DNA of 64,000 nucleotides from Mesorhizobium loti R88b (lineage in GTDB: Bacteria > Pseudomonadota > Alphaproteobacteria > Rhizobiales > Rhizobiaceae), in contig NZ_CP033367.1 of the NCBI RefSeq assembly GCF_013170845.1, forward strand, positions 3,163,001-3,227,000, written 5' to 3'. The translations under genes were made by a program, and so were the position numbers. Below, piece by piece: positions 3,284-10,632 of this stretch. Under the pieces are notes generated by a model. That model searched no databases. It worked only from the letters and a program-made list of their open reading frames with translations, and had not been told where the DNA came from. Numbering within the stretch: position 1 is the first letter of the stretch; each line of letters opens with the position of its first letter.

Positions 3284-3883
3284 ATGGCGCCGGTCAAGGT
3301 CGATCCCAACAAGGTCCGGGAGTTTCCGGACCCGGCCAGTTTCCACGCCTGGCTCGGCGAGCACCACGCCTCGGAAACCGAAGTGTGGATCAAGGTCCAC
3401 AAGGTGGGCTCGGGACTGAAGTCGATCACGCCGAAGCAAGCCATCGACGTCGTGCTGTGCTTCGGCTGGATCGACGCGGTGCGCAAGGGGCTGGACGACA
3501 ACAGTTTTCTCCAGCGCTACACGCCGCGCGGCAAAAAGAGCATCTGGAGCAAGATCAACATCGACAATGTCGCGCGGCTCATAGAGGAGGGCCGCATGAC
3601 AGAACGTGGGCTGAAACAGGTTGAGGCCGCCAAGGCCGACGGGCGCTGGGCGCGCGCCTATGGCAGCGGCAAGGAGATGAAAATCCCCGACGATCTGCAA
3701 GCGGCCATCGACGCCGAGCCTGCGGCAAAAGCGATGCTGGACAAACTCAGCGCGCAGAACCGCTTCTCGCTCGCCTTCCGCACCCACAACATGAAGACCG
3801 AGGCCGGACGCAAGAAAAAGATCGAGACCTTCGTCGCCATGCTGAAGCGTGGCGAGACGATCTATCCGCAGGGCAAGAAATAG
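3284..3883 (+). CDS. YdeI/OmpD-associated family protein
   Basis: This 199-residue cytoplasmic protein matches the YdeI-like family by overall layout. It has an N-terminal F-x-x-W-L segment, the C-F-G-W-I-D motif (about residues 63-68), R-Y-T-P-R and W-S-K-I-N segments, and a basic C-terminal helix with a R-K-K-K-I-E-T stretch. Members are linked to envelope stress or peptide resistance but have no firm biochemistry. The last 22 bases overlap the 3' end of the convergent LysR gene. Confidence 0.8.
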   Translation: MAPVKVDPNKVREFPDPASFHAWLGEHHASETEVWIKVHKVGSGLKSITPKQAIDVVLCFGWIDAVRKGLDDNSFLQRYTPRGKKSIWSKINIDNVARLIEEGRMTERGLKQVEAAKADGRWARAYGSGKEMKIPDDLQAAIDAEPAAKAMLDKLSAQNRFSLAFRTHNMKTEAGRKKKIETFVAMLKRGETIYPQGKK

Positions 3884-4857
3884 GGGCTTTCAGGCGCCGG
3901 AATGCGGGTCGACGGTTCGGTCTGCAAGGGCGCTGACGACGCCATCAAAATGTCCCCGCGGACGGCCTGGACAAGAAAGTCGCGGATCGTCGTCACACGC
4001 AACGGCATGTTTCGGCGCGAGGGATAAACGACGTTGATCGGCAGGCGCGTCGGCGGAAAATCCGGCATCAGCTTGACCAGCCTGCCGGCTTCGATGTCGG
4101 GTCCGGCCAGAATATGGGAGAGCACCGCGAGCCCGCTTCCGGCCAGTGCTGCACGATGGACGGCCATTGAATTGTTGGCGACCAGGCGGGGCTCAATCCG
4201 CACGACAATGTCATCCGCTCCACCGGAGAATGACCATGACCGGCCGTCGCCGCCACGGCTGTAACAAATGCAGGCGTGATCCCTGATGTCTTGCGGCGTT
4301 CGCGGTGTGTCGCGTGCCTTGAGATAGGCTGGCGAGGCGACGAGAAAGGCTGTTGTCCAGCCGATCCGGCGGCACATCAGGCTGCTGTCGCCGACCGGCC
4401 CGAGGCGCACCTCGAGATCGATTGCGTTGGCGATGAGGTCCGAGGGCTCGTCGCGAAGGAGCAGCTCGACTTGAAGTGCCGGATGGCGTTCCAGTAGCCC
4501 CGCCAGGCGGTCGCTGATGAAGAACCCGAGCGGCGTCGGCAGGCTGAGCCTCACCTTTCCGGATACGGCTCCGGCTTCGGCGCCGCTGACCTGGCCGAGC
4601 GCTTCGACCGCTTCGAGGACGCGCAGCGCCATCGGCAGCATCTGTTCACCTTCCGCCGTCAAGGCGAGCGCGCTGGTCGTGCGGTGCAGAAGGCGCGTCT
4701 TGAGATGCGATTCCAGTGCGGAGACCTGCCGCGATACTGCCGGCTGCGTCAGATTGAGGTCGAGCGCAGCCGCCGAGAAGGACTTTGTCTGCGCCACCCG
4801 CAGGAATGTTCGCAACGCCGATACGACGTCCATCCTCGCCCTCATACTTTTCGACAT
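3862..4857 (-). CDS. LysR-family transcriptional regulator
   Basis: This protein of 331 residues (323 from the alternative Met at 4833) has a typical LysR helix-turn-helix near the N-terminus, with the T-Q-P-A-V-S-R-Q-V-S-A-L-E core, and an effector-binding domain. It resembles the AaeR/DmlR-like group. It is divergent from the AhpD-SDR-cupin-MscS operon across a 103-bp intergenic region and so probably helps regulate that operon as well as itself. The C-terminal tail is Pro/Ser-rich and overlaps the YdeI-like gene. Confidence 0.88.
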   Translation of the reverse strand: MSKSMRARMDVVSALRTFLRVAQTKSFSAAALDLNLTQPAVSRQVSALESHLKTRLLHRTTSALALTAEGEQMLPMALRVLEAVEALGQVSGAEAGAVSGKVRLSLPTPLGFFISDRLAGLLERHPALQVELLLRDEPSDLIANAIDLEVRLGPVGDSSLMCRRIGWTTAFLVASPAYLKARDTPRTPQDIRDHACICYSRGGDGRSWSFSGGADDIVVRIEPRLVANNSMAVHRAALAGSGLAVLSHILAGPDIEAGRLVKLMPDFPPTRLPINVVYPSRRNMPLRVTTIRDFLVQAVRGDILMASSAPLQTEPSTRIPAPESPYFLPCG

Positions 4858-4909
4858 AAGCCTTATGTCCGCATCCTAGGCGGATGGCGCTTTACTGTCC
4901 AGATATTAC

Positions 4910-4943
4910 GGATATTTATTATCCTTAAGGACATAGGATATCC
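4910..4943. promoter_or_regulatory. Two tandem 15-bp palindromic operators (GGAYAT-N3-WTATCC)
   Basis: Site 1 (4910-4924) reads GGATAT-TTA-TTATCC and site 2 (4929-4943) reads GGACAT-AGG-ATATCC, with centres 19 bp apart. Site 2 ends 17 bp before the ATG of the AhpD-like gene. The same palindrome occurs once upstream of the Rrf2 regulator gene at 8340-8354 (GGATAT-GAA-ATATCC). The shared architecture suggests that the Rrf2 protein represses this operon. The divergent LysR protein is the alternative binder. Confidence 0.65.
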
Positions 4944-4960
4944 TCAAACAGGGAAAAACC

Positions 4961-5440
4961 ATGACACAGCGCCTGAACGCCGCCCAGCAATCGCCTGAAC
5001 TGTTCAAGAAGCTTCTCGATTTCAGCATGGCCGAGACACACAGCGCCATTGAAGAGAAGATCCGCGATCTGGTCCACATCAGGGCCTCCCAGATCAATGG
5101 CTGCGCCTTCTGCCTCGACATGCATGTCAAGGAAGCGAGGATCCATGGCGAGAGCGAGTTGCGCCTCTACCATGTCGCCGTCTGGCGGGAATCGACCCTT
5201 TTCAGTCCCCGCGAACGGGCGGCCCTTGCCTGGACCGAAGCCGTCACCAGGCTTCCCGAGGGCGGCATAGAGGACGAGCGCTATGAGCGCGTGCGCGGCC
5301 AGCTTTCGGAAAAGGAAATCTCCGACCTGACCTTCTCGGTCATGTCCATCAACGCCTGGAACCGGCTCAACGTCGCGTTCAAGACCGTGCCCGGCTCCGC
5401 TGACAAGCTCTACGGCCTCGACAAGGCCGGCCTGAACTAA
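4961..5440 (+). CDS. AhpD-like carboxymuconolactone decarboxylase-family protein
   Basis: This 159-residue protein has the CxxC-x3-H redox motif of the AhpD family (Cys48, Cys51, His55, in the segment NGCAFCLDMH). It is all-helical and of usual length. Such proteins act as thiol peroxidase reductants or remove reactive acyl compounds. It is the first gene of an operon with an NAD(P)-binding protein, a cupin and an MscS channel, and is preceded by two palindromic operators. The redox Cys pair fits control by an Rrf2 redox/Fe-S sensor. Confidence 0.88.
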   Translation: MTQRLNAAQQSPELFKKLLDFSMAETHSAIEEKIRDLVHIRASQINGCAFCLDMHVKEARIHGESELRLYHVAVWRESTLFSPRERAALAWTEAVTRLPEGGIEDERYERVRGQLSEKEISDLTFSVMSINAWNRLNVAFKTVPGSADKLYGLDKAGLN

Positions 5441-5503
5441 GCCTTCCCTGACAAACCCATCAAACGACGCGGCGCGAGATCGCGGCCGCAAATGGAGACC
5501 ATC

Positions 5504-6280
5504 ATGAAAATCGTCATCATCGGAGGCACTGGCCTCATTGGCACCAAGACCACCGAACGCCTGCGCAAGCAGGGCCACGAGGTGATCGCAGCCGCGCCGA
5601 ATACCGGCGTCAACACCATCACCGGCGAAGGCCTGCAGGAGACGCTCCAAGGCGCCGAGGTGGTGATCGACCTCGCCAACTCCCCGTCCTTCGAGGACAA
5701 GGCGTCGATGGACTTCTTCACGATTTCAGGCCGCAACCTGCTCGCGGCCGGCAAGGCTGCTGGCGTCAGGCATCATATCGCGCTGTCGATTGTCGGCACT
5801 GAACGCCTGCAGGATTGCGGCTATTTCCGCGCCAAACTCGTCCAGGAAAATCTGATCAAAGCCTCCGGCATTCCCTACACCATCGTTCATTCGACGCAGT
5901 TCATGGAGTTCCTGGCCGGCATCGCCAAGTCGGGCATGGTCGGCGAGGCGGTACATCTGTCGCCGGCCTATGTGCAGCCCATCGCATCCGACGACGTCGC
6001 CGACGTCATGGCCGGTGTCGCGCTCGCCGCGCCGATCAACGGCATGATCGAGATTTCCGGTCCGCAGCGTCTGCGCATGAGCGAGCTCGTCGCCCGCTAC
6101 CTCAAGGCTGTCGGCGATCCTCGCGAGGTCGTGGCTGATCCGGAGGCGCTCTACTTCGGCGCCCGGCTGAACGACACTTCGCTGGTCTCCGACAACAATC
6201 CCCGCCTCGGCCACATCAGCTTCGAGCAGTGGTTCGCCGCCTCGGCGCGGAAATCACCGCCAGCAAACGCGGCGGCTTAG
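5504..6280 (+). CDS. NmrA-like NAD(P)-binding oxidoreductase
   Basis: This 258-residue atypical SDR has the Rossmann motif GGTGLIG at residues 7-13. It has no classical YxxxK catalytic pair and resembles NmrA/HSCARG and NAD(P)H:quinone-oxidoreductase-like proteins. The start at 5504 is chosen because GGAGAcc lies at the right distance; the ATG 12 bases upstream overlaps that site. It is the second gene of the operon, 63 bp after the AhpD-like gene. A role in reducing quinones or sensing the NADPH/NADP ratio is inferred from family membership. Confidence 0.85.
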   Translation: MKIVIIGGTGLIGTKTTERLRKQGHEVIAAAPNTGVNTITGEGLQETLQGAEVVIDLANSPSFEDKASMDFFTISGRNLLAAGKAAGVRHHIALSIVGTERLQDCGYFRAKLVQENLIKASGIPYTIVHSTQFMEFLAGIAKSGMVGEAVHLSPAYVQPIASDDVADVMAGVALAAPINGMIEISGPQRLRMSELVARYLKAVGDPREVVADPEALYFGARLNDTSLVSDNNPRLGHISFEQWFAASARKSPPANAAA

Positions 6281-6312
6281 GCATACCGCTCAATGGAAAA
6301 AGGAGTTTTCAA

Positions 6313-6732
6313 ATGATCAAGTCCATCGTTGCCGCCGTCGTCGTGACGGCAGCCCTGGCGGTTCCGGCCGGAGCGCATGACGCCGGCGAAAAGGGGGCCA
6401 AGGTTACCCTCGTCTATGAGCATGAACTGCCGAATGTTCCGGGCAAGAGCATCAAGGGCATCCTTGTCGAATACGCCCCCGGCGGCACCTCGCCGGCGCA
6501 CACGCATCCGAGTTCAGCTTTTATCTATGCGACCGTTCTGGAAGGCTCCATCCGCAGCCAGGTCAACAACGACCCGGTCAAGCTCTACAAGGCCGGCGAG
6601 AGTTTTTCGGAGATGCCGGGCGATCGCCACAGCGTCAGCGAGAACGGCAGCAAGACCAAGCCCGCAAAGCTGCTGGCGGTGTTCGTGGTCGATACCGCCC
6701 AGAAGGAGCTGACCTATCCGGTCAAGAAGTAG
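6313..6732 (+). CDS. Secreted cupin-domain protein
   Basis: This 139-residue protein has an N-terminal signal peptide (MIKSIVAAVVV, cleavage about Ala-His near residue 22). A single cupin barrel follows, with a metal-site-like H-T-H segment (S-P-A-H-T-H-P) and a later G-D-R-H. It is predicted to be periplasmic. The start at 6313 follows an AGGAG site, and a longer in-frame reading overlaps the preceding gene. It is the third gene of the AhpD operon, with a 32-bp gap. The substrate is unknown. Genome neighbours of this kind often act on quinones or reactive electrophiles, which is only a suggestion here. Confidence 0.85.
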   Translation: MIKSIVAAVVVTAALAVPAGAHDAGEKGAKVTLVYEHELPNVPGKSIKGILVEYAPGGTSPAHTHPSSAFIYATVLEGSIRSQVNNDPVKLYKAGESFSEMPGDRHSVSENGSKTKPAKLLAVFVVDTAQKELTYPVKK

Positions 6733-6798
6733 GCGCAGAGGCCGGACGTCTTCCTGGGGGCCGGCCGTGCCTGCAAGCTCAAATCCACCGGTGAGTTC

Positions 6799-7830
6799 AT
6801 GTTCGGCGATTATCTGCCTCTGGTCCTGATCAATCTGCTCGGGGCTGCCGGCATTGTCGTCTGGTGTTTCCAGGGGCGTGGGCGTCCGATGGCGCGCCTG
6901 GTCGTCCAGATCCTGTTCTTCGCCGGCATGACCGCGGTGCTCGGCTTCAGCGGTATCCTGCCGCATTGGGTGGCCGAGACAGATCTTACAGAACTCCAGG
7001 GCGCGGGCGCATATCTGGCGACGTCGGCGCGCATCCTGTGGTGGGTACACCTGGCCTGGACGCTTGTCGGCTTCGTGCGCCTCTACATTGTCCTGGAACA
7101 CAGGCCGCAAGAGGCGCGCCTGCTCCAGGACCTGGTCGTTGCCGCCATCTATCTCGGCGTGGCGCTGTCGATAACAGGCTTCGTCTTCGGTGCTCCCATC
7201 GGAACGCTGGCGGCAACGTCGGGCGTGGTCGCGATCATTGTCGGGCTGGCGCTGCAGAACACGCTTGGTGATGTCTTCTCCGGCATCGCGCTGACGCTGG
7301 GCCGACCCTACACGCTCGGTGACTGGATCATGCTGGGCGACGGCACGGAAGGACGGGTCGTGGAGACGACCTGGCGCTCCACGCATCTGCTGACCGGCGC
7401 AAACAACATCGTCATCATGCCCAACAGCGTCCTGGCGAAGCTCAGCCTGACCAATCTCAGCCGTCCAGACGCGACGCAGCAGATGAGCCTGACGGTGCGG
7501 ATCGCGGCCACGCAGGCGCCGCACGTCATCGAAGCGGCCATGCTTACGATTCTCGCCAGCTGCCAACGGATCGTCCAGGAGCCGGCACCGCTTGTCGCGC
7601 TCAAGGAGATCGACGCGGTGGCAGTGGGGATGGACCTGCTCTTTTGCGTGGCCGGTCCGGGCGACCGGCTGCTGGCGAGGAATGAGGTGATCGACCTTGT
7701 CCATCGCCATTGCGAAGCGAGCGGCCTTTCCCTTGCCCTGCCGCCCCAGGCTTATGCCGGCGCCCTGTCCGTGACGAGAGACCTGCCGCCGGCGCCGGTC
7801 ATGCGTTCGCGGTCATCCGGCGCGCTCTAG
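6799..7830 (+). CDS. MscS-family mechanosensitive ion channel
   Basis: This 343-residue protein has about four N-terminal membrane segments, then the pore-lining helix with alternating Gly/Ala (around the TSGVVAIIVGLALQNT segment). The MscS beta domain follows, with a G-D-W-I motif and a T-x-L-x-x-x-x-N-x-x-x-x-M-P-N segment, then a C-terminal alpha/beta cap. It sits in the inner membrane and releases solutes under hypo-osmotic stress. It is the last gene of the AhpD operon (66-bp gap). Its end overlaps the convergent Rrf2 gene by 18 bp. Confidence 0.9.
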   Translation: MFGDYLPLVLINLLGAAGIVVWCFQGRGRPMARLVVQILFFAGMTAVLGFSGILPHWVAETDLTELQGAGAYLATSARILWWVHLAWTLVGFVRLYIVLEHRPQEARLLQDLVVAAIYLGVALSITGFVFGAPIGTLAATSGVVAIIVGLALQNTLGDVFSGIALTLGRPYTLGDWIMLGDGTEGRVVETTWRSTHLLTGANNIVIMPNSVLAKLSLTNLSRPDATQQMSLTVRIAATQAPHVIEAAMLTILASCQRIVQEPAPLVALKEIDAVAVGMDLLFCVAGPGDRLLARNEVIDLVHRHCEASGLSLALPPQAYAGALSVTRDLPPAPVMRSRSSGAL

Positions 7831-8301
7831 CACCCATTCGAAGCTGTTCTTCCAGAGCTCCTCCGGGATCTCCAGCGCCAGCGCTTCGGTAAGGTCGGAA
7901 AGCCTGACGCCGCGCAATTTTGCCCGCCAGGCCTCATCGGCTTCCCACATGATGCGCGACACCGCGCAAGGGCTGCTTTCACAATAGCCCTGCGGACGGC
8001 ACGGATTGTTTGCACGGATGTTGTTGCACACAAACGTCCGCGCCTTGCCCTCCACCGCCTCAACGATGTCGAGGAAGGTCAGTTCGGCCGGTGGCCGCGC
8101 CAATCGATACCCGCCCGATGGACCGAGCGTCGTATTCACCAGACCCGCCTGCGACAGGCTTTGCAGCGCCTTGGAAAGATATTCCTTGGGAAGGCCGTGG
8201 AATTCGGCGAGCGCTTTCGTCGAGAGATACCGTCCCTCAGGCAGACCGGCGAGAATGGCGCAGCAGTGCAGCGCCCATTCGACTTGGCTTTTCAGGATCA
8301 T
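7813..8301 (-). CDS. Rrf2-family transcriptional regulator, probable Fe-S or thiol sensor
   Basis: This 162-residue protein has an Rrf2 winged helix at the N-terminus, including the G-P-x-G-G-Y-R wing at about residues 60-66. A Cys-rich loop carries Cys92, Cys101, Cys107 and Cys112. IscR uses three Cys in this loop to ligate a [2Fe-2S] cluster, so redox, iron or NO sensing is likely. A perfect 15-bp palindrome lies 39 bp upstream of the start and recurs in front of the AhpD operon. This suggests autoregulation and control of that convergent neighbour. It is not a convincing IscR, because no isc/suf genes are near. Confidence 0.87.
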   Translation of the reverse strand: MILKSQVEWALHCCAILAGLPEGRYLSTKALAEFHGLPKEYLSKALQSLSQAGLVNTTLGPSGGYRLARPPAELTFLDIVEAVEGKARTFVCNNIRANNPCRPQGYCESSPCAVSRIMWEADEAWRAKLRGVRLSDLTEALALEIPEELWKNSFEWVLERAG

Positions 8302-8339
8302 CAGTGAATTCCAAGGCCGATGCTGATCGAATTCATTAA

Positions 8340-8354
8340 GGATATGAAATATCC
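8340..8354. promoter_or_regulatory. 15-bp palindromic operator upstream of the Rrf2 gene
   Basis: GGATAT-GAA-ATATCC is a perfect inverted repeat with a 3-bp spacer, placed 39 bp before the Rrf2 start codon. It matches the pair of sites at 4910-4943 and is most simply an Rrf2 autoregulatory site. The rest of the 175-bp gap between the Rrf2 and GST genes shows no gene. Confidence 0.65.
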
Positions 8355-8476
8355 CTATTTAGCCGGGGTGTAAACAGACAGGTTCCGCAGGACGGGATCG
8401 GCATGGTCTGTTGCCAGGGCGGCTTGGCGGCGCGACATGCGCAATGCCGATATCCGCAGGGCAAGATATAGCGGCT

Positions 8477-9106
8477 TCAGCCGCCCGAATGTGGGTCGAT
8501 GCTGTAGGGGTGGACGGGGTAGCCGGGGCCGATGGCGTCGGCCACGCGGCCGGTCCAGGCGAGGAATGCCGGGTAGTCCGCAAGCGAAAAGCCGCAATCT
8601 CCGGCGCGGTGGCTGTAGGCATAGACGGCGATGTCGGCGATGGTCAGGTCGTCGCCAGTGAGGAATGGCGTTTCGGCAAGGCTGCGGTTCAGGGCGGCGA
8701 GCGTGCGGGCGCCTGCCTCGCGCTTGCTGGCAACCATGGCCTGGTTGCGCTCAAGCCGTCCGGTCAAGGTCCAGAAGCGCAGCGAGCCGATGACGGGCTC
8801 GACATTGTATTGCTCGAAGAACAGCCACTGCATGATCTTGGCGCGCCGAGTGCGGTCGGCCGGCAGGAACGGCGTGCCTTCGGCGAGGTAGGTGAGGATC
8901 GCATTGGATTCGGCAATGGCACTGCCGTCTTCGAGCTGGAGCACGGGAACCGCACCGGCCGGATTGAGGTCGAGGAAAGCATCGGTGTGGCTCTCGCCTT
9001 CGAAGATCGAGACCATGCGCGTGTCGTATGGAATCTTCAGCAGGCCGAGCAGGACCCGGACTTTCCAGCCATTTTGCGATGGCAGATAATCGTGAAGCGT
9101 GAGCAT
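8477..9106 (-). CDS. Glutathione S-transferase family protein
   Basis: This 209-residue protein has a thioredoxin-like N-terminal domain (about 1-78), with P-V-L near 55 and the E-S-N-A-I-L-T-Y-L glutathione-binding segment. A helical C-terminal domain follows, with L-x-x-x-D-L-T-I-A-D near 150. It conjugates glutathione or acts as a peroxidase/isomerase in the cytoplasm. The start at 9106 has a GAGGAT site upstream. The reading frame stays open far beyond this start through neighbouring genes, which is a GC effect. It is divergent from the SDR gene at 9281. Confidence 0.9.
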   Translation of the reverse strand: MLTLHDYLPSQNGWKVRVLLGLLKIPYDTRMVSIFEGESHTDAFLDLNPAGAVPVLQLEDGSAIAESNAILTYLAEGTPFLPADRTRRAKIMQWLFFEQYNVEPVIGSLRFWTLTGRLERNQAMVASKREAGARTLAALNRSLAETPFLTGDDLTIADIAVYAYSHRAGDCGFSLADYPAFLAWTGRVADAIGPGYPVHPYSIDPHSGG

Positions 9107-9280: not shown

Positions 9281-9979
9281 ATGAATCCGCCCCCCAACAA
9301 AATCGCCCTCGTCACCGGCGCCAATCGCGGTATTGGCCTGGAAACCGGGCGCCAGCTGGCGAAACTCGGCTTCATCGTGCTGCTCGGCGTGCGCGATCTC
9401 GCCAAGGGCGAGGCGGCGGCGAGGGGGCTTGATGGCCATGTCGAGGCCATCAAGCTCGATGTCGCCGCGCCAGACGCGGCAGCAAGCGCAGCCGCCGAAG
9501 TCGAGCGTCGGTTCGGCCGGCTCGACGTGCTGATCAACAATGCCGCCATCCACTATGACAGCGGCGCGCGCGCCTTGCGGGCCGACTGGACCGTGATCCG
9601 CGAGGCGTTCGAGACCAATGTCTTTGGCGCCTGGCGAACGGCGTCCGCCTTCGCGCCTCTGCTCCTGGCGGGCGGTCATGGCAGGCTGGTCAATGTGTCG
9701 TCGGAAGGCGGCTCGCTGGCCTCGATGGGGGCGGGGGCGCCGGCCTATTCGACCTCGAAAGCGACGCTCAATGCGCTGACCTGCGTGCTGGCGGCCGAAC
9801 TGCGCGGCTCCGGCGTGCTGGTCAACGCCATCTGCCCGGGCTGGGTCGCCACCGATATGGGCGGGCCGGGCGGACGACCGGTGGCGCAAGGGGCAGCCGG
9901 CATCGTCTGGGCCGCGACCTTGCCGGATGACGGCCCGACCGGCGGCTTTTTTCGCGACGGCAAACGGCTGCCGTGGTGA
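9281..9979 (+). CDS. SDR-family oxidoreductase, carbonyl-reductase-like
   Basis: This 232-residue classical SDR has the cofactor motif TGANRGIG at residues 13-20 and N-N-A near 86-88. The catalytic Ser in VSSEGG and Y-S-T-S-K (YxxxK) near 155-159 are present, as is P-G-W-V-A-T-D. It is predicted to be an NADPH-dependent carbonyl reductase. It is divergent from the GST gene and is followed after 23 bp by an NADP-binding protein gene, probably as a two-gene operon. Confidence 0.9.
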   Translation: MNPPPNKIALVTGANRGIGLETGRQLAKLGFIVLLGVRDLAKGEAAARGLDGHVEAIKLDVAAPDAAASAAAEVERRFGRLDVLINNAAIHYDSGARALRADWTVIREAFETNVFGAWRTASAFAPLLLAGGHGRLVNVSSEGGSLASMGAGAPAYSTSKATLNALTCVLAAELRGSGVLVNAICPGWVATDMGGPGGRPVAQGAAGIVWAATLPDDGPTGGFFRDGKRLPW

Positions 9980-10002
9980 GCGTGGTTGAACAGGAGGCGA
10001 AG

Positions 10003-10632
10003 ATGAAAATAGGAATTCTCGGCGCCGGCATGATCGGCGGCACGGTCGGACGGCTGTGGGCGCAGGCCGGACACAGCGTGACCTTCGGTGTGCGGCATCC
10101 CGAGCGGCTGCGCTCGATGCTTTCCGGCCTTGGCGGCAAAGCCAAGGCGGGCTCGGCCAGCGATGCCGTTGCCGACGCTGACATCGTGCTGGCCGCCATC
10201 CCGTTTCGCGCATGGCCCGATGTCGCGGCCGAGATCGAGGCAGCACTTGGCGACAAGGTGCTGCTCGACGCCACGGTGCCCGACCCGCCGCGCGACGGCG
10301 CCTTCGGCGACGCGGCACTTGCCCGCAAGGAGGGCGTGGCTTTTTCCGTGGCACCGCTGTTGGCGCGTGCAAAGCTGGTTCGTGCCTTCAGCACGGTGAT
10401 GTGGACGACGCTGCAATCGCAGGCGCATCGCGCCGGTGACCGGATCGGCATTCCGCTTGCCGGCGATGATGAAGAGGCTGTTGCCCTGGCGGCACTGCTG
10501 GTGGCGGATGCCGGCTTCGATCCGGTGGTGGTCGGACCGCTGTTACAGGCCCGCCGCTTCGACCCCGGCACTGAAGTCTTCGACAGCGGCATGAGCGGGC
10601 CGCAGGTTCGGGCAGCACTCGGCGTCGCATGA
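10003..10632 (+). CDS. NADP-binding protein, F420H2:NADP oxidoreductase-like (YqcI/NADP_Ox family)
   Basis: This 209-residue Rossmann protein starts MKIGILGAGMIGG, with the dinucleotide motif GxGxxG at residues 6-11 and a G-V-R-H segment for the NADP phosphate. The layout follows the coenzyme-F420-dependent NADP reductase family. Most bacterial members do not use F420, and the substrate here is unknown. The start at 10003 follows an AGGAGG site. A GTG in frame at 9973 would overlap the SDR gene but lacks a better site. Confidence 0.8.
   Translation: MKIGILGAGMIGGTVGRLWAQAGHSVTFGVRHPERLRSMLSGLGGKAKAGSASDAVADADIVLAAIPFRAWPDVAAEIEAALGDKVLLDATVPDPPRDGAFGDAALARKEGVAFSVAPLLARAKLVRAFSTVMWTTLQSQAHRAGDRIGIPLAGDDEEAVALAALLVADAGFDPVVVGPLLQARRFDPGTEVFDSGMSGPQVRAALGVA

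Follow-up and report, generated by a model that had tools for sequence, protein, structure and literature searches.

Candidate operators link a putative RsrR-type Rrf2 regulator to an ahpD-sdr-cupin-mscS operon in Mesorhizobium loti R88b

RsrR and other systems related to the locus

The Rrf2-family regulator RsrR of Streptomyces venezuelae (Sven6563) is the described protein that best matches, in both sequence and fold, an Rrf2 protein encoded in a 64,000-nucleotide stretch of the Mesorhizobium loti R88b genome (NZ_CP033367.1, positions 3,163,001 to 3,227,000; hereafter the window). The gene of this protein, rrf2, stands next to an operon for an AhpD-like protein, an NmrA-like short-chain dehydrogenase/reductase (SDR), a cupin, and an MscS-type mechanosensitive channel (Table 1). 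The cluster ligands of RsrR are E8, H12, C90, and C110, and W9 is a switch residue (PMC9218516). The oxidised holo form of RsrR binds DNA tightly, the reduced form binds weakly, and the apo form does not bind (PMC5015018). Its class 1 site has an 11-3-11 form, and sites are located between rsrR and the NmrA-type neighbour; JM0141, an oligonucleotide of the rsrR/nmrA promoter used in electrophoretic mobility shift assays, contains GGATA-N5-TGTCC twice, as GGATACCCGATGTCC and GGATAGTCTGTGTCC (PMC5015018), and these two sites are 27 bp apart from start to start. ChIP-exo located 630 binding places of RsrR in S. venezuelae, and a clear response to the loss of RsrR came just from the divergent nmrA-type gene (PMC5015018). 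With hundreds of sites and one clearly responding gene, the signal of RsrR is hard to read in that organism.

The window protein and RsrR have E8, W9, H12, and two C-terminal cysteines in common. The two systems also share the operator core GGATA-N5-T(A/G)TCC in an 11-3-11 frame, into which the window footprint ATTAAGGATAT-N3-ATATCCTTAAT fits, and a site in the regulator's own promoter. An NmrA-like NAD(P)-binding protein is a target of RsrR and a predicted target here: in the window, operator sites precede both rrf2 and the operon that holds the NmrA-like SDR gene. On the other hand, the operator flanks are TTAA here and ACTC/GAGT in RsrR, and the window protein has the additional invariant cysteines C101 and C107, the latter of which may match C106 of RsrR. 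The predicted targets differ in that AhpD, a cupin, and MscS are included, and rrf2 is convergent with the predicted target operon, whereas the RsrR gene is divergent from its target. We consider it probable that the window protein is an RsrR-type autoregulated redox repressor, which acts on rrf2 and on ahpD-sdr-cupin-mscS via GGATA-N5-TATCC.

Other members of the Rrf2 family are more distant. RirA has four invariant cysteines, and the cluster of NsrR is bound by three cysteines and Asp8 (PMC9218516). The window protein scores far under the NCBIfam cut-offs of RirA (NF008886, 39.4 bits against 193), NsrR (NF008240, 41.5 bits against 182), and IscR (TIGR02010, 31.9 bits against 207.55). SifR is a quinone sensor that controls ywnB, with one conserved reactive cysteine and the operator TGTAA-N9-TTACA, and no cluster is reported for it (PMC9218516). 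The SifR/YwnA proteins of the Firmicutes share the family with the window protein and differ from it in these features. The product of ywnB binds NAD(P). A likeness on the side of the targets is found in Pseudomonas aeruginosa, in which the AhpD-like CxxC protein RclX protects from hypochlorous and hypothiocyanous acid (HOCl/HOSCN) (PMC7950407); RclX is under the control of RclR, a homologue of the reactive-chlorine regulator of E. coli, and not of an Rrf2 protein. No earlier description of an Rrf2-AhpD-SDR-cupin-MscS regulon was found in the open-licence literature; new here are this regulon (with its NmrA-like SDR), the operator doublet, and the two extra invariant cysteines.

Operators of the locus and their conservation

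A preliminary description of the locus had reported two 15-mers of the form GGAYAT-N3-WTATCC before the ahpD operon and one before rrf2, and all three are present, starting at 4910, 4929, and 8340 (Table 1). The two sites before ahpD, both of which fit this degenerate consensus, form a doublet with a start-to-start distance of 19 bp, and the site before rrf2 is a perfect 6-3-6 palindrome. The genome-wide search proposed as a check was run on the single contig of 7,207,166 bp: exact matches to the consensus are confined to the three window sites, all within 3.4 kb, and none was found at other places in the genome. Since approximately 1.0 exact match to GGAYAT-N3-WTATCC is expected per genome on an independent and identically distributed base model (2.8 for GGATA-N5-TATCC), rarity alone is weak evidence, and it is the clustering within 3.4 kb and the conservation that count. 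Exact GGATA-N5-TATCC is found, among the matches listed, at two palindromic places, 4910 and 8340, both of which belong to this locus. With up to one mismatch, GGAYAT-N3-WTATCC has 44 matches on both strands of the genome, the window sites among them, compared with 13 in the reversed control, and GGATA-N5-TATCC has 73 against 46 among the matches listed. This excess may reflect a few weak further sites, or base composition; two of the one-mismatch matches form the doublet of a paralogous Rrf2-AhpD module. For the extended operator TTAAGGATA-N5-TATCCTTAA, a search of the whole genome that allowed three mismatches gave just the three window sites (3 forward matches, 1 control match). Plain chance was rejected as the source of the sites, because the exact sites of the genome are all located here and are kept in relatives.

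Conservation was evaluated in the best 80 of 143 relatives from a scan of genome contigs, in which loci were recruited by two peptide patterns, one of them including E8. The 80 loci are mainly from Mesorhizobium, Rhizobium, Sinorhizobium/Ensifer, Labrys, Shinella, Neorhizobium, and Aureimonas, and also from Nguyenibacter, Ancylobacter, Phyllobacterium, and Rudaea, the last of which is a gammaproteobacterium. The best core site within 150 bp before rrf2 has no mismatch in 60 of the 80 loci, one in 19, and two in 1. A doublet with a 19-bp period (total mismatches of at most 3) is present in 79 of the 80 loci, one per locus, and 73 of 75 site pairs with at most 2 total mismatches and spacings from 15 to 40 are at spacing 19. 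At the rrf2 operator, the mean over the core columns is 1.87 bits, and most columns past the extended operator and the -35 box have 0 to 0.3 bits; on this contrast, recent common ancestry was rejected as the sole cause of the likeness of the rrf2 sites. The flanks of the ahpD doublet are better kept (approximately 0.1 to 0.7 bits on one side and 1.0 to 1.7 bits over the predicted -35 stretch), and the contrast between core and flanks is smaller there than at the rrf2 site.

The gene neighbourhood is conserved as well. Within 6.5 kb of rrf2, partners with at least 45% identity were found for AhpD in 77 loci, the SDR in 76, the cupin in 75, LysR in 72, MscS in 70, and an MBL-fold hydrolase in 18. 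The genes that start within 160 bp of the doublet are ahpD and lysR (71 loci), ahpD alone (6), the SDR gene (1), and the MscS and SDR genes (1); one locus has no doublet. The frequent presence of lysR, with the doublet between it and ahpD, would also fit a different arrangement, in which the divergent LysR protein, bound to the doublet, is what drives the operon and Rrf2 is a mere neighbour. We regard this as extremely improbable, because the same site is located before rrf2, away from lysR, and the doublet is kept in 7 of the 8 loci without a LysR found within 6.5 kb. Moreover, paralogous Rrf2-AhpD modules have a related doublet before rrf2 itself, and the core equals that of the RsrR operator. 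In a Nguyenibacter locus (L087), two more exact sites, 31 bp apart, are situated approximately 6638 and 6669 from the Rrf2 start and directly before a 333-residue membrane-protein-like open reading frame, which is a possible extra target.

The operators also follow the regulator from genome to genome. Among 397 sampled genomes of the order, a set that overlaps with the 80 loci at least at L066 (G017), L068 (G008), L077 (G220), and L104 (G155), the exact doublet pattern is present in 11, once in each, and the reversed control gave no match among the genomes listed. An Rrf2 ortholog (E of at most 1e-40) was found in 18 genomes, including all 11 with the doublet (hypergeometric P of 4e-17, a value that ignores the relatedness of the genomes). 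Of the other seven regulator genomes, six have a looser doublet (at most 4 core mismatches) next to AhpD. The seventh, G210 (L191, 5525-6714), contains two tandem Rrf2 genes, 45% and 35% identical to that of the window, behind two sites 25 bp apart, which is near the 27 bp of RsrR.

When genes of the regulon are displaced, operators are found with them. In G025 and G035 (L059 and L060) and in Mesorhizobium plurifarium (L136), mscS is divergent from sdr-cupin with the doublet in between, and the stretches of these three loci gave no AhpD. In G365, approximately 10 kb separate ahpD from rrf2, and the doublet is at ahpD. In G017, the gene of an MBL-fold metallo-hydrolase is on a different contig from rrf2, and a doublet precedes it by approximately 50 bp. 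The 18 regulator-bearing genomes were scanned for the extended operator with at most 2 mismatches, which is present in 17 of them (48 forward matches, 3 in the control); the matches outside the Rrf2 loci are just the doublet of G017, a single site in G008 (C38:12457) to which no target was assigned, and a weak site in G417 (C33:44859). Phylogenetic footprinting, co-occurrence, and the operators at displaced regulon genes thus strongly support the proposal of the preliminary description that one operator links rrf2 with the AhpD-SDR-cupin-MscS operon, and the regulon predicted from these operators is well supported.

The regulator protein and its paralogs

The best sequence match of the window protein in the PDB is RsrR (6hsd; phmmer E of 1.8e-31), followed at 3e-8 by the next non-RsrR protein. 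A Foldseek search with an AlphaFold model, which was built from 15 sequences and has a mean predicted local distance difference test score of 79.6, gave RsrR chains at ranks 1 to 11 and then CymR (2.9e-7). E8, W9, H12, C92, and C112 are present in 81 of 81 orthologs. In an alignment of eight sequences with RsrR, the invariant Glu, His, and Cys residues are just E8, H12, C92, and C112. The HMMER alignment places C106 of RsrR opposite C107, MAFFT alignments do not, and C101 is without an RsrR partner.

The same genome contains a second RsrR-like Rrf2-AhpD module (Table 1), which recurs in other Mesorhizobium genomes. This paralogous module resembles that of the window in its E8, H12, and two cysteines, its NGATA-N5-TATCC-like doublet, and its AhpD-like gene; it differs by A9 or Q9 in place of W9, the absence of the middle cysteines, a 16-bp period, and an AhpD-like protein that is 43 to 50% identical. 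In the paralog group, found by similarity, E8, H12, and the cysteines aligned to C92 and C112 are present in 24 of 24 loci, residue 9 is Ala in 23 and Gln in 1, and the 24 loci are without C101 and C107. When L033, which is part of this ligand count, is left out, an AhpD-like gene is located downstream in 23 of 23 loci, and a doublet with a 16-bp period (at most 3 mismatches) precedes rrf2 in 22 of 23.

E8, H12, C92, and C112, shared with the paralogs, are the published ligand positions of RsrR, so that a subunit-bridging cluster of the RsrR type is the best reading of the sequence. The preliminary description had instead pointed to C92, C101, C107, and C112 as loop cysteines suited to an Fe-S or thiol sensor. 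Their positions are correct, with C13 and C14 present besides, and each of the 81 orthologs has all four; the ligands shared with the paralogs, however, are just the four named above, and the sensor is better read as RsrR-type than as a plain four-cysteine switch.

Because C101 and C107 are invariant within the clade of the window, and because four other Rrf2 proteins found in the genus (L194, L195, L198, and L199) have cysteines in all four loop-cysteine columns, there is room for another cluster type. A [4Fe-4S] or interconverting cluster, bound by three loop cysteines and E8 and responsive to nitric oxide, oxygen, or iron, would recall the three cysteines and Asp8 of NsrR and the four invariant cysteines of RirA. 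Such a cluster seems unlikely to us: the four-cysteine proteins of the genus have K8 and K12, the paralogs with a related operator keep E8, H12, C92, and C112 without C101 and C107, and W9 is kept in every ortholog. For two of these four-cysteine proteins, L194 and L195, no NCBIfam equivalog reached its cut-off. A hybrid sensor, in which a four-cysteine loop like that of these other proteins of the genus is combined with the Glu/His ligands and the Trp switch known from RsrR, is a rather doubtful variant; its cluster could be either a redox-active [2Fe-2S] or a labile [4Fe-4S], and it would read both redox poise and oxygen, nitric oxide, or iron at one operator. If this were true, the RsrR box would be ancient, retained in both Streptomyces and proteobacteria as the operator of an AhpD/NmrA stress core. 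We give still less weight to a cluster-free thiol switch, in which disulphides of the loop cysteines would release the DNA on oxidation as in HypR/SaiR. Thiol-only Rrf2 proteins do exist (PMC9218516), the protein has six cysteines, and AhpD and NAD(P)-linked targets would suit a response to thiol oxidants; nevertheless, the joint conservation of E8, H12, C92, and C112 in orthologs, paralogs, and RsrR is difficult to account for unless a metal cluster is present, which makes the thiol switch very improbable.

An RsrR-like match at 1e-25 was found in 30 of 398 genomes of the phylum, and 30 loci, the window's gene included, were examined for breadth (20 of the same class and 10 of other classes). 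A site with at most one mismatch is present within 200 bp upstream in 17 of the 20 same-class loci, against 101 of 2000 random windows of the same loci. In two of the three same-class misses (L200 and L208), ahpD is located just before rrf2 and the locus contains a doublet with 2 mismatches, which stands before ahpD in L200 (G319). In two further loci (L189, 4804-5807, and L190, 3618-4656), a minimal ahpD-then-rrf2 pair, with rrf2 products 66% and 63% identical, is situated behind one doublet, and this pair is perhaps the ancestral arrangement. As the paralogous modules have AhpD downstream and a doublet, Rrf2(E8/H12)-AhpD looks like the core of the system, to which the SDR, cupin, MscS, and MBL-fold genes would have been added. 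Two other-class relatives of the VEY..H type (L228 and L229) are without GGATA-N5-TATCC; in L228, a long palindrome, CTTGTCGGAGTTAACTCCGACAAG, is found approximately 70 to 100 bp upstream of the Rrf2 gene and is nearly kept in L229, and it is possibly a different operator class.

Predicted promoters, proposed control, and neighbouring genes

As listed in Table 1, a -35 hexamer is predicted before both transcription units. For the ahpD operon, a 16-bp spacer separates TTTACT from TATTTA (4913-4918), which is inside operator 1; for rrf2, a 17-bp spacer separates TTTACA from TATTTC (8346-8351), which is inside the rrf2 operator. At each of the two promoters, a protein on the operators would lie over the -10 region, so repression is the simplest reading and the likely mode of control. 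A consensus promoter scan called neither the predicted rrf2 promoter nor the predicted ahpD promoter; it gave 2 minus-strand candidates, against 1.0 (standard deviation 1.1) in shuffles, one of which, TTGAGG-18-GATAAT (4947-4918, -), is inside the doublet and directed at lysR.

In the control that we propose, the Rrf2 dimer would recognise GGATA-N5-TATCC in its 11-3-11 form, with one occupied site over the -10 of the rrf2 promoter and two adjoining sites over the -10/start region of the ahpD operon; the doublet would probably affect the divergent lysR as well. By analogy with RsrR, [2Fe-2S] clusters may bridge the subunits, with E8 and H12 from one and C92 and C112 from the other. Repression would be exerted by the oxidised holo form on the DNA, and reduction or loss of the cluster would release the DNA, with W9 as the mechanical switch. 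Release would then induce the AhpD-like CxxC protein, the NmrA-like SDR, the periplasmic cupin, and the MscS channel, plausibly under electrophile, quinone, or reactive-chlorine redox stress. Binding by the Rrf2 protein, the direction of control, the type of cluster, the signal, and the functions of the products are what we infer here, the direction and the signal being carried over from RsrR; judged from related proteins, defence against redox or electrophile stress is the likeliest role of the operon.

Several observations weigh against an RsrR-type repressor. The period of the sites is 19 here and 27 in RsrR, and hundreds of sites in S. venezuelae compare with three strong ones here. Judged by full-length sites of the extended operator at up to three mismatches, of which the genome contains three, the large regulon of RsrR is not seen here; such a regulon is a property of the founding member and not clearly a defining trait of the type. 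None of the 10 other-class Rrf2 relatives with the E..H pattern has a site with one mismatch or fewer; two have sites with 2 mismatches. Locus L113 is without a doublet, L134 has 2 mismatches before rrf2, and G040, one of the six genomes with a looser doublet, is without a site before rrf2 (best 3 mismatches). The recruiting pattern that includes E8 is present in 76 of the 80 loci, the remaining 4 having been recruited solely through the second pattern. The AlphaFold model is a monomer and weak at residues 91 to 110, which places the cluster site outside its scope. The two extra invariant cysteines of the clade, together with the four-cysteine Rrf2 proteins of the genus, point in the same direction.

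If the RsrR-type repressor holds, the rhizobial regulon is compact, with two transcription units, and genetically tractable, so that sensing by an RsrR-type Glu/His-ligated cluster becomes directly testable. The AhpD-like, cupin, and MscS proteins gain a regulatory context.

Table 1. Positions of genes, operators, and predicted promoter elements in the window, and of the paralogous module in the same genome
Feature	Position	Strand	Evidence and remarks
LysR-family regulator gene	3862..4857	-	Pfam LysR_substrate and HTH_1; divergent from ahpD, intergenic doublet common to both
Predicted -35 of ahpD operon, TTTACT	4891..4896	+	Read from sequence; aligned CTTTACTGTCCAG stretch conserved in 79 doublet loci
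Operator 1 of doublet	4910..4924	.	GGATATTTATTATCC; overlaps predicted -10 of ahpD operon
Operator 2 of doublet	4929..4943	.	GGACATAGGATATCC; conserved together with operator 1
AhpD-like (CMD family) protein, 159 residues	4961..5440	+	CxxC is CAFC; PF02627, E 4.2e-22; ahpD_dom TIGR00778
NAD(P)H-binding NmrA-like atypical SDR, 258 residues from ATG 5504	5504..6280	+	PF13460, E 3.7e-11; PF05368 NmrA, 37.9 bits
Cupin (Cupin_2)	6313..6732	+	PF07883, E 6.6e-14; signal-peptide-like N terminus
MscS-type mechanosensitive channel, 343 residues	6799..7830	+	PF00924, E 1.1e-14
Putative RsrR-type Rrf2 regulator, 162 residues	7813..8301	-	PF02082, E 4.1e-32; E8, W9, H12, C92, C112, with C13, C14, C101, C107
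Operator of rrf2	8340..8354	.	GGATATTTCATATCC (coding strand); covers predicted -10
Predicted -35 of rrf2, TTTACA	8369..8374	-	Read from sequence; conserved block -20 to -15, 1.5-1.9 bits, 80 loci
Second RsrR-like Rrf2-AhpD module, same genome	G000:C1:3570065-3571500 (L061/L196); Rrf2 gene 3570116-3570595		Rrf2 40% identical, A9; tandem near-operators; AhpD-like gene downstream

The gene products named in the preliminary description (AhpD, NAD(P)H-binding SDR, cupin, MscS, and Rrf2) are confirmed by their Pfam families. The AhpD-like protein has PA0269 and Atu0492 as PDB relatives. The cupin, which has no NCBIfam match and no PDB relative at E 1e-3, is probably periplasmic, with a signal-peptide-like start judged by eye. 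The genes of the operon are separated by gaps of 32 to 66 bp, and no terminator-like site was found between them; one is inside mscS, against 2.5 in shuffles. The 3' ends of mscS and the convergent rrf2 overlap by 18 bp. An MscS homologue in Rhizobium leguminosarum (L118, 9507-11021, -) has a C-terminal cyclic-nucleotide-binding domain (PF00027), for which the window MscS gave no match. On the other side of the rrf2 operator, no such operator was found at up to 2 mismatches between 8355 and 15292 of the window. Just past rrf2 are genes for a GST, an SDR, and an F420-type NADP oxidoreductase (window 8477-9106, -, and 9281-10632, +).

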